64,000 nt of DNA. Origin: an uncultured Lachnospiraceae bacterium. Lineage in GTDB: Bacteria > Bacillota > Clostridia > Lachnospirales > Lachnospiraceae. The stretch spans positions 1 through 64,000 of the forward strand of contig CANQRU010000013.1 of NCBI GenBank assembly GCA_947626395.1, given 5' to 3'. The notes beneath the pieces were generated by a model. That model had not been told where the DNA came from. It saw nothing but the letters and a program-made list of their open reading frames with translations, and searched no databases. The stretch's first letter is position 1, and the number at the start of each line of letters is the position of its first letter. Shown piece after piece: positions 3 through 58,712 of the stretch. The position numbers and the translations under genes are program-made.

Positions 3-377
3 ATCCGCCAGCAATGCGAGGCCCGCGAAGATTATTACCGGAGCGTTGGATGGATGAATGATGAGATCGCACATCTGGCTTCCGATCTGAAACAACTGGC
101 TTCTGAGAAGCAGCAGCTGACTTCTGAAAACCAACAGCTGACTTCTGAGAAGCAGCAGCTGACTTCTGAAAACCAACAGCTAACTTCTGAAAAGCAGCAG
201 CTGACTTCTGAAAACCAACAGCTGACCTCCGAGAAACAACAGCTGGCCTCCGAGAAACAACAGCTGGCCTCCGAGAAACAACAGCTGGCCTCCGAAAACC
301 AACATCTGGCTTCCGAGAATGAACGCCTGCGCCAACTTCTCGCAAATGCCGGCATCCCGGATATCGAAAAGAACTGA
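3..377 (+). CDS. C-terminal part of a probable Rpn/PD-(D/E)XK nuclease-family protein, heptad coiled coil
   Basis: The reading frame is open to the left edge, so this is the 3' end of a longer gene. The first residues in frame (IRQQCEAREDYYRSVGWM) resemble the region just after the nuclease domain in Rpn-family (recombination-promoting nuclease, putative transposase) proteins of Lachnospiraceae, where a CEAREDYYR-like stretch leads into a variable coiled-coil tail. From base 96 to 326 the protein is eleven exact heptads of the type L-(A/T)-S-E-(K/N)-Q-Q with Leu at the core position, then LRQLLANAGIPDIEKN. No catalytic residues lie in the visible part. A strong terminator follows 15 bases after the stop. 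The gene is convergent with the glycan operon to its right. The Rpn assignment is inferred from the short non-repeat part and is moderate; a generic coiled-coil protein is the alternative. Confidence 0.6.
   Translation: MRQQCEAREDYYRSVGWMNDEIAHLASDLKQLASEKQQLTSENQQLTSEKQQLTSENQQLTSEKQQLTSENQQLTSEKQQLASEKQQLASEKQQLASENQHLASENERLRQLLANAGIPDIEKN
96..326 (+). repeat. 21-bp tandem repeat encoding eleven heptads
   Basis: Eleven in-frame 21-bp units, each encoding one heptad. The middle units alternate SEK and SEN, so the effective higher-order unit is 42 bp. The last units drift to LASEKQQ and LASENQH. Synonymous differences between units are few, pointing to recent slippage or unequal recombination. 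Confidence 0.9.
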
Positions 378-6547: not shown

Positions 6548-7690
6548 TTATTTCCCTCCACTTTCCAGGAATTTCCTGACCTTCTTAATCATTCTCCAGA
6601 GATTTCTGTCGATCAGTACACGTACCGTCCTGACCGCCAACGCTCCCGCGCGGATTCGGCCTTTCATCTGGAGATTTCCGTCGATCACCGCGTTCTCGAA
6701 ATCAGGCGTGATCGTCAGTTCCGTACCATACAGCGCATAGAGTACACTGCACGCCGCCAGTACACTCCCCGTCGTCGCCGGGTCGTCGAATCCGAACGTA
6801 ATCTGCCCTGACGCCTTCTGCGGCAGGATATGCCGAATCATGGCCTTTGCCTGACGCCAGACCAGCCGGATCGTCTTCTGGTTCTTCGGATCTTCCAGGA
6901 AACGCTCGATCCAGCGGCGCTTCCTGTCCGCCCACTCAAGCTTCCCGCCGATCCGGTCAAAAATATTCTCGATCTTATCAATGATATCGTCGGAGGATTC
7001 TTCTGCCCCCGGCGGGTTATGTTCATTCTCATCCTGCCGCAGCTCTTCTTCCAAAGTCGGCAGCTGAGAAATATCGATGCCTTCCGTTATAGTTTCTTCG
7101 GTCTGGGAATCCGCCATATGAGCGGAATCTGCAGTTTCGGATATATTTTCCGTGACATTGTCCACGGAACTGGCAGCTTCATGTGTATCTCCCGCAGTGC
7201 CATTCGCTGTGCCTGCGGCATTGATAGTTCCGGATGTATCTCCCGCAGCGCTATCCGCGGCATCTGCCGAATCGGCAGTTCCGGATGAAACTCCCGCGGC
7301 GCCTGTCGCCCCATCATCCGTCTCCAGCGATGTTACGCTTACGATCTCATCTCCATCCGCTATATCCGCTTCGCCGTCAATTTCATCGTCCCACTCGCCG
7401 GCTTCGCCTGCCTCTTCATTTTCTTCTCCTCCCGAAGCAGAATGAAGCACAGTGAATCCGAACAGCTTCGCCGTGATATCCAGACCATTTTCATACGAAG
7501 CCAGAACAGAAACCGCGTGAAGCAGCCATGTGACCCGGACCTTCCCCGCGGGCTCTCCGTGCCAGCTTCCCTCCAGACGGTATCGGAGAGGAACCAGAAG
7601 CACCAGCAGCACGGCCGCAAGCAGCAGCCCCAGGATAACCAACAGCACAATCCCTATGATCTTAAGTATCAAAAGCAGGATATGCAGCAT
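6548..7690 (-). CDS. DUF2953-domain membrane-anchored protein with long acidic insertion
   Basis: 380 residues. A hydrophobic N-terminus of ~30 residues (LLLILKIIGIVLLVILGLLL...) gives one membrane anchor. The segment LVPLRYRLEG...WLLHAVSVLASYENG is the start of the DUF2953 region. Its C-terminal part (KAMIRHILPQ, GQITFGFDDPATTG, ITPDFENAVIDG) is intact. Between them (~residues 90-225) lies a low-complexity acidic stretch rich in Ala, Asp, Ser, Thr and Gly with imperfect repeats (SADAADSAAGD, INAAGTANGTAGD). This makes the protein much longer than the usual ~200-230 residues. It is translationally close to gerW, the B. subtilis ytfI-ytfJ arrangement. Function in sporulation is inferred from that pairing. 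GGGAGAGG precedes the ATG. Confidence 0.85.
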   Translation of the reverse strand: MLHILLLILKIIGIVLLVILGLLLAAVLLVLLVPLRYRLEGSWHGEPAGKVRVTWLLHAVSVLASYENGLDITAKLFGFTVLHSASGGEENEEAGEAGEWDDEIDGEADIADGDEIVSVTSLETDDGATGAAGVSSGTADSADAADSAAGDTSGTINAAGTANGTAGDTHEAASSVDNVTENISETADSAHMADSQTEETITEGIDISQLPTLEEELRQDENEHNPPGAEESSDDIIDKIENIFDRIGGKLEWADRKRRWIERFLEDPKNQKTIRLVWRQAKAMIRHILPQKASGQITFGFDDPATTGSVLAACSVLYALYGTELTITPDFENAVIDGNLQMKGRIRAGALAVRTVRVLIDRNLWRMIKKVRKFLESGGK

Positions 7691-22856: not shown

Positions 22857-22969
22857 GATTCCTGACCGGACGGATGCACCCGACTCTTTCTCCATCACGG
22901 AACCATCTCGAAATATTCTTGAATCTTACACAGAAAATTTCGGGAAATTGCCGAATCTTAAGAATCACA

Positions 22970-22998
22970 TAGACTTTGCAAACCGGCCGTGGTATACT
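22970..22998 (+). promoter_or_regulatory. Probable promoter of the heptad-repeat gene
   Basis: TAGACT, a 17-base spacer, then TATACT, 42 bases before the GTG start. Confidence 0.6.
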
Positions 22999-23039
22999 TA
23001 TTTCGTGACTGGTCAATCATACAGGAAGGGAGTGATGCT

Positions 23040-23636
23040 GTGAATGACCGTGAACTGATGGAAGCAATGTTTGAAGCTGTAACCGGACTAAAGGTTGATA
23101 TGACCGACATGAAAACTGAGATGACCGGTATGAAGGCCGAAATGGCAGGCATGAAGGCCGATATCAACGACATGAAAGCCGATATCAACGGCATGAAAGC
23201 CGATATCAATGGCATGAAAGCCGATATCAATGGCATGAAAGCCGATATCAACGGCATGAAAGCCGATATCAACGGCATGAAAGCCGATATCAATGGCATG
23301 AAAGCCGATATCAATGGCATGAAAGCCGATATCAATGGCATGAAGGCCGATATCAATGGCATGAAGGCTGAGATAACCGGCATAAAGACCGATATGGCTG
23401 ATATGAAAGCTGAACTGAAAGCTGACATAACAAACCTGCGAACTGAGCTGAAGTCCGATATTCAAAAGATTAACATTCAGTTAGAGAATGATATTGTACC
23501 GCGTCTGAATACAATCGAAGAATGCTATACCGATACATACAAGCGTTATGTGGTTGAAACAGATAATATTCAGCAATTGAAAACCGATGTACATCTGTTA
23601 AATATAGCCGTATCCAGATTATATCAGTCAGCCTAA
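23040..23636 (+). CDS. Heptad-repeat coiled-coil protein, 198 residues
   Basis: I start this gene at the GTG at 23040 because AGGAAGGGAG ends seven bases upstream; an earlier ATG at 22989 lies inside the promoter region. The N-terminus (NDRELMEAMFEAVTGLKVDM) is followed by an almost perfect heptad array MKADING, ten exact MKADIN units flanked by degenerate ones. Met and Ile fall at the two core positions of each heptad. The C-terminal ~70 residues (QKINIQLENDIVPRLNTIEE...VHLLNIAVSRLYQSA) are less repetitive and also helical. No signal peptide or membrane segment. The architecture suggests a rod-like homo-oligomer; the function is unknown. GC is lower than in the neighbours. It has its own promoter and a hairpin downstream. 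Confidence 0.85.
   Translation: MNDRELMEAMFEAVTGLKVDMTDMKTEMTGMKAEMAGMKADINDMKADINGMKADINGMKADINGMKADINGMKADINGMKADINGMKADINGMKADINGMKADINGMKAEITGIKTDMADMKAELKADITNLRTELKSDIQKINIQLENDIVPRLNTIEECYTDTYKRYVVETDNIQQLKTDVHLLNIAVSRLYQSA
23151..23360 (+). repeat. Ten 21-bp tandem units encoding MKADING/D heptads
   Basis: Ten units with exactly 21-bp spacing. They differ mainly at the Asn codon (AAC in units 1, 2, 5 and 6, AAT in the rest) and at AAG/AAA in the second codon. The pattern of synonymous sites indicates block duplication. Confidence 0.95.
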
Positions 23637-23658
23637 CCGATTATAATACACGACCGCA

Positions 23659-23697
23659 AAGCGCGTGAGTCTATGCCTCCCCATAGTCCACGCGCTT
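23659..23697 (+). terminator. Hairpin downstream of the heptad-repeat gene
   Basis: Arms AAGCGCGTG and CACGCGCTT with an inner CTATG/CATAG pairing. The T-rich stretch that follows (GTATAGTTTTATA) is imperfect, so efficiency is uncertain. Confidence 0.65.
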
Positions 23698-23720
23698 ACC
23701 TGTATAGTTTTATATAAGTA

Positions 23721-56151: not shown

Positions 56152-56265
56152 AGCTGGTCTCCTGTTCTTTTTCGTCCAACATTTTTTCGTCTAACTTTTT
56201 TTCTATCGTCCAATCATGTTCAATTTTGTATGAAAAGCAATCAACTGGGCAAAAATCATTTGTCA

Positions 56266-57275: not shown

Positions 57276-58712
57276 TTATATTTTGACTAATATGTCTTTC
57301 CTTGATACCATTACCGCTGTCTCTATATGTTCTGTGTGCGGGAATAAATCATACGGCCACGCTTCCCCCGCCCGGTAGCCGAACTGCTTAAACACCTTCA
57401 GATCCCTGGCCAGCGTCTCCGGATTGCAGGAAATGTACACCACCCGCGACGGCTTCAGCGCCGCCGCGGCGCGGATAAATTCCTCCGTGCTGCCGCTTCT
57501 GGGCGGATCCATGAAGATCACGTCCGCGCGTTCTCCCTGGGCCGCCATGCCTGTCATAAATACCGTCGCATCGTTCTGGTAGAATTGGATATTCTCCGTC
57601 CGGTTGCGCTTCGCGTTGGCGGCGGCGTCCCGCACCGCGTCCGGATTCAGCTCCACGCCGATCACCCGGCCTGCCTTCGCGGCAGCGATGATGCCGATAG
57701 TTCCCGTACCGCAGTAAGCGTCGATCACCGTCTCCTGCCCGGTCAGACCGGCCAGTTCCATGGCTTTTCCGTAAAGCTTCTCCGTTTGCGCCGGATTCAC
57801 CTGGTAAAAAGACTTGCTGGAGATGCGGAACCGGCAGCCGCACAGTTCGTCCTCAATATAGCCTTTGCCATAAAGCACTCTCTCCTTGTCCCCCAGCACC
57901 ATGCTGGTGGAACGGTCGTTCTGATTCTGGATGACCGTGGTGATCTCCGGATGACGTTCCCGCAGCGCTTTTACAAAATTGTTGCGGGAGGGAAATACCG
58001 GCGAAGCCGTCACCAGCACCACCATGATCTCGCCGGTGGCGAAGCCGCGCTTCACCAGCACATGGCGGAGAAAGCCGAAGCCGCTGTCCTCGTCGTAGGT
58101 CTTGATCTTAAAAGATTTCGCCAGTTCCCGCACAGTTCCGATGATCTCGTCCGCCTTCTCGTCCTCGATCATGCAGGACTTCACCGGCACGATCCGGTGG
58201 CTCCCCTCCTGGTAGACCCCGGAAATGATCTCGCCCTTCCGGAATCCGAATACAGCGTGTACCTTATTCCGGTAATGGAACGGTTTCTCCATACCGGTGA
58301 TGGGCTGCACTTTGCATGCGCCGCCCAGGAGCCGTTCCACGCTGTGCTGCTTGCGCTTCAGCTGTTCATCGTAAGGAATGTCCAGCATCTGGCAGCCGCC
58401 GCATTTACCAAAGGCGGGACAGATCGCTTTCTTCTCAACAGTCGCCTGCTTTTCTTTTTTGACCTGAGTTGATATGGATGTCTGCCTCGAATCGAATTCA
58501 CCGAGACGTTGAGATCTCCTTGGTCTCTGAGACGCGCCTGCCTTTTGCGGCATCTTTGTCCGCTGTGGTTCTTCTTCCTTCCGCGGTCCTGCTGCTTTTC
58601 GCTGCGTTTCTTCCTTCCGCGGTCCTGCTGCTTTCCGCTGCGTTTCTGCCTTCTGCGGCGCCGCCCCCTGCGCCGACTTCTTATCTGTATTTCTCTTATT
58701 CCTGCTGTCCAT
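57276..58712 (-). CDS. rlmD: RlmD/TrmA-type 23S rRNA (uracil-C5)-methyltransferase with a basic repeat tail at the N-terminus
   Basis: 478 residues. The 4Fe-4S motif CPAFGKCGGCQMLDIPY, KPFHYRNKVHAVF, the SAM site VIDAYCGTGTIGIIAAAKAG, DVIFMDPPRSGSTEEF and the catalytic Cys in VVYISCNPETLARDL are complete. RlmD-type enzymes make 5-methyluridine in 23S rRNA; Firmicutes often have two copies with different sites. The first ~90 residues are a Lys/Arg/Gln/Glu-rich extension with a tandem 12-residue repeat (QRKAAGPRKEET). I start at ATG 58712 (GGGG upstream); a GTG at 58733 is possible. Confidence 0.92.
   Translation of the reverse strand: MDSRNKRNTDKKSAQGAAPQKAETQRKAAGPRKEETQRKAAGPRKEEEPQRTKMPQKAGASQRPRRSQRLGEFDSRQTSISTQVKKEKQATVEKKAICPAFGKCGGCQMLDIPYDEQLKRKQHSVERLLGGACKVQPITGMEKPFHYRNKVHAVFGFRKGEIISGVYQEGSHRIVPVKSCMIEDEKADEIIGTVRELAKSFKIKTYDEDSGFGFLRHVLVKRGFATGEIMVVLVTASPVFPSRNNFVKALRERHPEITTVIQNQNDRSTSMVLGDKERVLYGKGYIEDELCGCRFRISSKSFYQVNPAQTEKLYGKAMELAGLTGQETVIDAYCGTGTIGIIAAAKAGRVIGVELNPDAVRDAAANAKRNRTENIQFYQNDATVFMTGMAAQGERADVIFMDPPRSGSTEEFIRAAAALKPSRVVYISCNPETLARDLKVFKQFGYRAGEAWPYDLFPHTEHIETAVMVSRKDILVKI
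58575..58646 (-). repeat. Two tandem 36-bp units in the methyltransferase N-terminus
   Basis: Two adjacent 36-bp copies (58575-58610 and 58611-58646) with one mismatch, encoding the duplicated 12-residue basic motif. Confidence 0.85.

Follow-up and report, generated by a model that had tools for sequence, protein, structure and literature searches.

Cap-rod-cap proteins of Lachnospiraceae: conserved ends around a coiled-coil-like rod of highly variable length

Introduction

Length-variable heptad arrays are usually met gene by gene in pathogens. An array of this kind lies in the genome of an uncultured gut bacterium of the Lachnospiraceae (assembly GCA_947626395.1, contig CANQRU010000013.1, positions 1 to 64,000, the whole stretch of 64,000 nucleotides being called the window hereafter), where a short gene repeats one heptad ten times through a 21-bp tandem array. 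The locus raises the question of what such a protein is, and of whether the length of its repetitive part matters. The gene turned out to belong to a family that offers over a hundred natural versions sharing their ends but not their rods, some of them rodless and of constant size. With such a set it becomes testable whether rod length tunes function or drifts freely, and so does the birth of coiled-coil repeats, through two-copy stages (L100 and L101) and units derived from the end pieces, or caps (L052 and L153).

Results

The rod gene and its tandem array

The product of the 198-codon frame (Table 1) contains the exact motif MKADIN ten times in steps of seven residues (21 bp), and Tandem Repeats Finder assigned the array a period of 21, 11.8 copies and a score of 389, the top score in the window. 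Along the ten units the asparagine codon runs AAC AAC AAT AAT AAC AAC AAT AAT AAT AAT, and the longest exact repeat in the gene measures 81 bp at a lag of 84 bp, both of which indicate that a block of four units was duplicated. An earlier note on this DNA, made from the letters alone, had described ten exact heptads with 21-bp spacing, block duplication from the AAC/AAT pattern, and a coding repeat that had grown into a coiled coil through in-frame duplication, in tandem and in blocks, all of which was borne out. Its description as a perfect heptad holds for the array, whose register is a=Ile, b=Asn, c=Gly, d=Met, e=Lys, f=Ala and g=Asp, but not from 23394 on, where the hydrophobic spacing read from the sequence becomes 3-4-4. 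An 18-residue part of this post-array segment is absent from the alignment of the nearest orthologue, G013. No signal peptide or membrane segment was visible on inspection of the window protein.

Table 1. Features of the rod gene and its surroundings, in window coordinates.
Feature	Position	Strand	Basis
Promoter-like site TAGACT-17-TATACT, TG before the -10 (extended -10)	22970..22998	+	9/12 matches; weak alone
Ribosome-binding site AGGAAGGGAG	23023..23032	+	Sequence; kept in three orthologues
Rod gene, 198 codons plus stop, GTG start	23040..23636	+	Reading frame; orthologues
N-terminal cap (NDRELMEAMFEAVTGLK...)	23040..23099	+	Alignment; 115/122 uncut members open with an N-cap-like pattern in the same frame
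21-bp tandem array	23148..23395	+	Tandem Repeats Finder; motif count
Post-array segment, 3-4-4 (hendecad-like) hydrophobic spacing	23394..23459	+	Sequence; alignment
C-terminal cap (LENDIVPRLNTIEECYTDTYKRY...), conserved signature of the family	23460..23633	+	Alignment, profile
Hairpin 3' of the rod gene, without T-run	23659..23697	+	z -5.47; kept in G012, G013, G014 and G021

An alternative, longer frame starts at 22989. The start codon at 23040, which is GTG in the window and in G013, is supported by the ATG found at the equal position in the orthologues of G012 and G014. Six promoter-like sites were found in the region, against 3.9 expected by shuffling, and the one listed in Table 1 is kept, together with the ribosome-binding site, in G012, G013 and G014, the three relatives with upstream sequence. 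The hairpin was not among the calls of the terminator scan. Of the promoter, Shine-Dalgarno sequence and downstream hairpin from which the earlier note had concluded that the gene looks expressed, the second and the third were recovered, the hairpin lacking a T-run, whereas the promoter-like site is weak when taken alone.

A family with two conserved caps

The key step, already proposed in the earlier note, was a homologue search with the non-repeat C-terminus, which opened up a family. Searched with a C-terminal cap profile, 53 of 396 Lachnospiraceae genomes contained members, as did 49 of 77, 6 of 8 and 2 of 2 genomes of three single genera; the protein tail, used by itself against the window's own genus, matched in 11 of 26 genomes. 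The same profile recovered the window's own copy only in a sample of 299 genomes of the phylum. Each of three profile searches (the 396 genomes of the family and the genus sets of 77 and 8) contained only one listed place with an internal stop in its open stretch. From part of the listed loci, 128 distinct proteins were collected, duplicates being dropped where they were repeat retrievals of one place only, and 122 of them are uncut by an end.

The C-terminal cap carries the family signature ENxIxPRLxxIExCYxxTYxRY, kept in the window protein and its orthologues, and at the other end NDRELMEAMFEA of the window protein aligns in the same frame with the MTDNELLLAIS type of N-terminal cap. The window protein therefore has all three features of the family, namely the C-cap signature, an in-frame N-cap and variable tandem repeats between them. 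Alignment of the members shows the two caps to be conserved and the middle to vary freely. Nine rodless members measure exactly 86 residues, with an anchor distance of 37 residues from cap to cap in 9/9. An insert is lacking in 12 of the 106 members that could be scored. At the other extreme, the length between the caps reaches about 234 residues, and it is 118 residues or more in 25% of the 122 uncut members. On a tree of weak resolution, with good support for 17 of its 113 inner branches, rod and rodless states switched at least 14 times (104 members) and array types at least 17 times (78 members).

No partner gene common across genera emerged when the predicted genes around 46 loci were clustered, so no partner is suggested by the neighbourhood; the commonest other neighbour cluster occurs at 13 of the 46 loci, at varying distance. 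These all-helical proteins have no family name in curated libraries, and no description of the cap-rod-cap family was found in a literature search with thin coverage of subscription papers and preprints.

Two variants of the design were also seen. A sub-type of the C-terminal cap in L093 (G366) and L098 (G130) has LLAENYVPAAKRYE instead of the CYTSTYxRY motif. A paralogous cap-rod protein is encoded in the window's own genome (L002/L178, G000 contig C18, 61796-62359, at a contig end) and in G014 (L015); its C-terminal cap is of another kind (EGHxDLxRKLDxAxK...), so that the design is equal and the ends are other. For this type, a single query of 249 phylum genomes (248 besides its own) returned its own copy only.

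Repeat units and their origin

Arrays exceeding those of 200 shuffles were detected in 79 of the 122 uncut members. When members were grouped into 44 clusters by tail similarity and each period was counted once per cluster, 58 period calls were obtained: 4 residues (3 calls), 7 (21), 8 (1), 11 (5), 14 (17), 15 (2), 16 (2), 18 (1), 19 (2), 21 (2), 22 (1) and 23 (1). Excerpts of PMC5344682 give 4, 11, 15 and 18 as coiled-coil periods besides heptads. Most of the family's periods are multiples of 7 or 11, or are 4, 15 or 18, as in that excerpted list, and 16, 19 and 23 are off it.

Repeat units arose de novo repeatedly, some of them from end pieces. Ten members carry extra copies of a cap-like Pro-Arg/His/Gln-hydrophobic motif inside the rod, and in L052, L131 and L153 the rod consists of cap-like units, which means that the C-terminal cap itself was amplified into rod units. 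Two-copy stages were found as well, of an N-cap piece in L100 and of a C-cap piece in L101.

Orthologues and rapid change of rod length

The gene order GH53 galactanase, rod gene, alpha/beta hydrolase and amidohydrolase (Pfam names) is kept in G012 and G013, and one side of it is present on the contigs of G014 and G021. Four of the relatives with an orthologue also occur among named Lachnospiraceae bins from rabbit gut. Over the 117 codons shared with G013 there are 0 synonymous differences in 71.8 sites and 3 non-synonymous ones, against a dS of 0.17 to 0.38 in the neighbouring genes, where 0 of 1311 windows of 58 codons are as low as the rod gene. The G013 version, of 117 residues, is nevertheless 81 codons shorter, which corresponds to nine heptads plus the 18-residue piece. 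Similarity of the tail is unusually high towards G014 (0 of 794 neighbour windows as low) and G021 (11 of 652), and not unusual towards G012 (204 of 1307). The near-identical patch extends over window positions 22916-23719, with 98.9% identity to G013 (561 aligned bases, 6 mismatches) between flanks of 81% and 90-94%, and therefore points to an apparent interspecies exchange of the gene with its promoter and hairpin. The rod gene and its control region thus seem to have been exchanged between species by recombination, and recently so, the rod being altered afterwards; a chimeric assembly is a possible alternative source of the near-identity.

With 85% or more identity across the final 50 codons as the criterion, 41 close pairs were found among uncut members: 31 join two genomes and 10 join gene copies on one contig. 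The length differs in 41/41, although these pairs come from few related groups and are not independent. Members of equal length do exist among the rodless ones, but they are less closely related than the 41 pairs. Rod length thus changes far faster than point mutation accumulates, both between species and between gene copies. Length variation, which the earlier note had anticipated between strains, is therefore real between relatives. The note had named a constant number of repeats combined with synonymous divergence as the pattern that would speak against it, and the reverse was seen, the length in G013 differing at zero synonymous divergence. Its expectation of steps of one heptad did not hold throughout: G013 differs by nine heptads and 18 residues, and other lineages use units of 11, 15, 18 and further numbers of residues.

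Family gene copies lie side by side on several contigs, including L076 (G095 contig C55, four copies), L159 (G744) and L113 (G745), and each copy has another rod length.

Coiled-coil constraint and predicted structure

In 50 heptad-type arrays, with the register picked to maximise hydrophobic filling of a and d, hydrophobic residues occupy 485/513 a and 503/518 d positions, and 8/520 e and 0/519 g positions. Between neighbouring units, pN was lowest at e and g (0.047), intermediate at a and d (0.086) and highest at b, c and f (0.132), and both position contrasts stay off zero when arrays are bootstrapped, also with one array per cluster (33). The overall pN/pS between units, 0.23, is biased low since the arrays were found by amino-acid identity, a bias that only the contrast between positions escapes. 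The rod positions evolve as expected of a coiled coil.

AlphaFold2, given single chains only, predicted one helix in the window protein (residues 3-197, pLDDT 94.7) and likewise in an 86-residue rodless member (residues 3-85, pLDDT 93.0); the pTM was 0.48. Insert lengths showed no lock to a helical phase (Rayleigh R 0.07-0.21 for three periods in three ranges, none significant), which speaks against a ruler with fixed cap rotation. Accordingly, the rod does not fix the rotation of the caps and has no preferred length, a result that is also compatible with a rod whose length does not matter.

Database searches and comparison with known systems

Matches of the whole protein in PADLOC, Pfam, NCBIfam and PHROG were coiled-coil noise in large proteins, and an identity as a known domain or antiphage system was rejected; the C-terminal part and the rodless members gave few matches in the same libraries. 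PDB sequences yielded nothing credible. A phage or plasmid origin was discarded as well. The full protein matched 55 phage records by coiled-coil similarity only, 0 of them covering 80%. Two short members found no match in a phage genome collection. Among plasmids there were two weak records, whereas a short member had no match, and in IMG/VR two contigs carry a relative. PHROG 33872, which has no annotated function, was matched at E <= 1e-3 by 11 of 26 short members, near end to end with weak scores, the C-cap sub-type of L093 and L098 matching best (2e-7 for L098), and may be a phage-side relative; it is absent among the best 25 for the window protein, and the C-terminal part did not match it. 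A bdr gene annotated in Borrelia was hit weakly by the C-terminal 80 residues (E 9e-3, 35.6% identity), which looks like typical coiled-coil similarity. The Rfam model Gut-1 (RF01706), whose printed consensus itself looks like tandem hairpins about 20 nt long, was rejected for the minus strand, where it scored 26.0 and 22.6 bits against a curated 50.

Length-variable heptad proteins are already known, as excerpts of the papers on NeuO, FutA/B and DUF16 make clear. Judging from the text excerpted from PMC3472980, the nearest architectural parallel is the DUF16 (RepMP1) group of Mycoplasma pneumoniae, in which 21-nucleotide tandem direct repeats encode 7-residue coiled-coil repeats in strain-dependent number; its function is given there as unknown, and the authors propose slipped-strand mispairing and unequal crossover. 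The rod gene too has 21-nucleotide repeats coding for heptads in variable number, here between species. In the same excerpts, however, the DUF16 repeats lie in a distal domain, itself variable in sequence and length, and change by one or two heptads, whereas those of the rod family lie between two conserved caps, change by up to 81-112 residues in close relatives and use other unit lengths too. DUF16 is absent among the best 25 of 108 Pfam families that match the whole window protein through coiled-coil similarity, and the C-terminal 80 residues matched 4 Pfam families, none of them DUF16.

For copy number as a dial, NeuO and FutB are precedents. According to the excerpted parts of PMC3046976, Escherichia coli K1 NeuO carries variable tandem heptads and its activity rises linearly with their number, but its repeat is of seven nucleotides, so that the frame switches on and off, its heptads stand at the N-terminus of an enzyme, and the structure is argued not to form a triple coiled coil. 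The window protein, a predicted helix throughout with no enzyme family in its C-terminal part, has no enzyme domain for heptads to sit on. In Helicobacter pylori FutA/FutB, closely related strains carry unequal numbers of heptads (12 against 4 in futB), and this number is described as determining how far the active site stands off the cell surface (excerpts of PMC5358919); there the heptads form the tail of a glycosyltransferase, a domain that the window protein lacks. Bacterial Smc arms share with the rod family a coiled-coil spacer between two conserved ends, but only arms whose length fits a periodic pattern are functional, as stated in the excerpts of PMC5344682, and no such pattern was found here. 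None of NeuO, FutB and DUF16, as the excerpts describe them, combines two conserved caps with a rod whose repeat unit is made anew from lineage to lineage.

Discussion

The reading that we hold to be probable is that these proteins act as a cytosolic, self-associating helical spacer with conserved ends, its length being set by the copy number of an in-frame repeat. The product would be a short cytosolic protein forming one continuous alpha helix that most likely self-associates into a coiled coil; the two caps would probably carry a binding or self-association function, and the middle would act as a spacer whose length follows the number of in-frame tandem repeats. Slippage or unequal recombination may shift this number, far faster than point mutation changes the sequence, with the outcome that each species would have another rod length between similar ends. 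Several results argue for the spacer: relatives keep both caps while the rod varies, the nine 86-residue members share one anchor distance, 79 of 122 members carry arrays above shuffles, G013 differs by 81 codons without a synonymous difference, all close pairs are unequal, positions a and d are filled with hydrophobic residues and differ in pN from the others, and a single helix is predicted. Counted against it are the missing helical phase, the lack of a conserved neighbour, and models of single chains only, with a pTM of 0.48.

A bolder extension, tentative and somewhat doubtful, would treat these undescribed Lachnospiraceae rods as an adjustable spacer in which selection maintains the caps and the coil chemistry, and length serves as a heritable dial. 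In its full form, put forward with the same reserve, independently born repeats, some derived from the caps, would reset the length faster than synonymous sites change and so tune whatever the caps hold. The strongest rival is a neutral account, which we regard as rather doubtful, in which the caps alone matter and any in-frame helical length is harmless, the variation being without function. The occurrence of rodless members in several genera, a length with neither preferred value nor helical phase, and the repeated changes between rod and rodless states on the weakly resolved tree speak for it. Nevertheless, charged and core positions of the rod are conserved relative to b, c and f, which argues that the sequence is not free, and long rods recur, as the quarter of members with at least 118 residues between the caps attests. 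We consider it improbable that the locus diversifies under selection by a phage, a competitor or a shifting partner for new rod versions, as contingency loci do. Its patchy presence (11 of 26 genomes in one genus, 49 of 77 in another) and the exchange-like patch with promoter and hairpin would suit such selection, but the caps have been kept and not diversified, inspection revealed neither a signal peptide nor a membrane segment, and no credible defence family was matched, the rodless L035 giving no match and long members matching only coiled-coil parts of large proteins.

Collapsed or chimeric draft assemblies of similar species in one sample might account for part of the length differences, given that the related records stem from binned rabbit-gut metagenomes and bear node names of an assembler, that several members lie at contig ends and that the 81-bp exact repeat exceeds small assembly word sizes. 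We judge this very unlikely, because the differences include non-repeat pieces such as the 18 residues absent from G013, unit sequences differ between members, and unequal copies occur within one contig (L048, L159 and L113). Hardly credible is a role of the repeat as DNA or RNA, for instance as an antisense, Gut-1-like small RNA on the minus strand, with the protein incidental: the two weak RF01706 matches, 84 bp apart at window positions 23156-23316, and an antisense open frame at 22958-23428 could be cited for it, yet both scores fall below the curated one with many pairs unformed in the alignment, the caps are conserved as protein, and positions in the rod follow heptad chemistry.

Other repeats in the genome

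Independently of the rod gene, a gene cut by the contig start (window 3-377), whose Pfam matches are coiled-coil only, contains a second 21-bp heptad array at 91-319 with QLTSEN/QLTSEK units. Further tandem repeats with periods that are multiples of three lie in the window at 7184-7303 (51 bp), 56168-56203 (15 bp) and 58572-58658 (36 bp). On contig C9 of the same genome (G000), L003 encodes a PD-(D/E)XK nuclease family transposase protein (PF12784, E 7e-13) that ends in a heptad-like AALESSKAELAANQAELAANQ tail.
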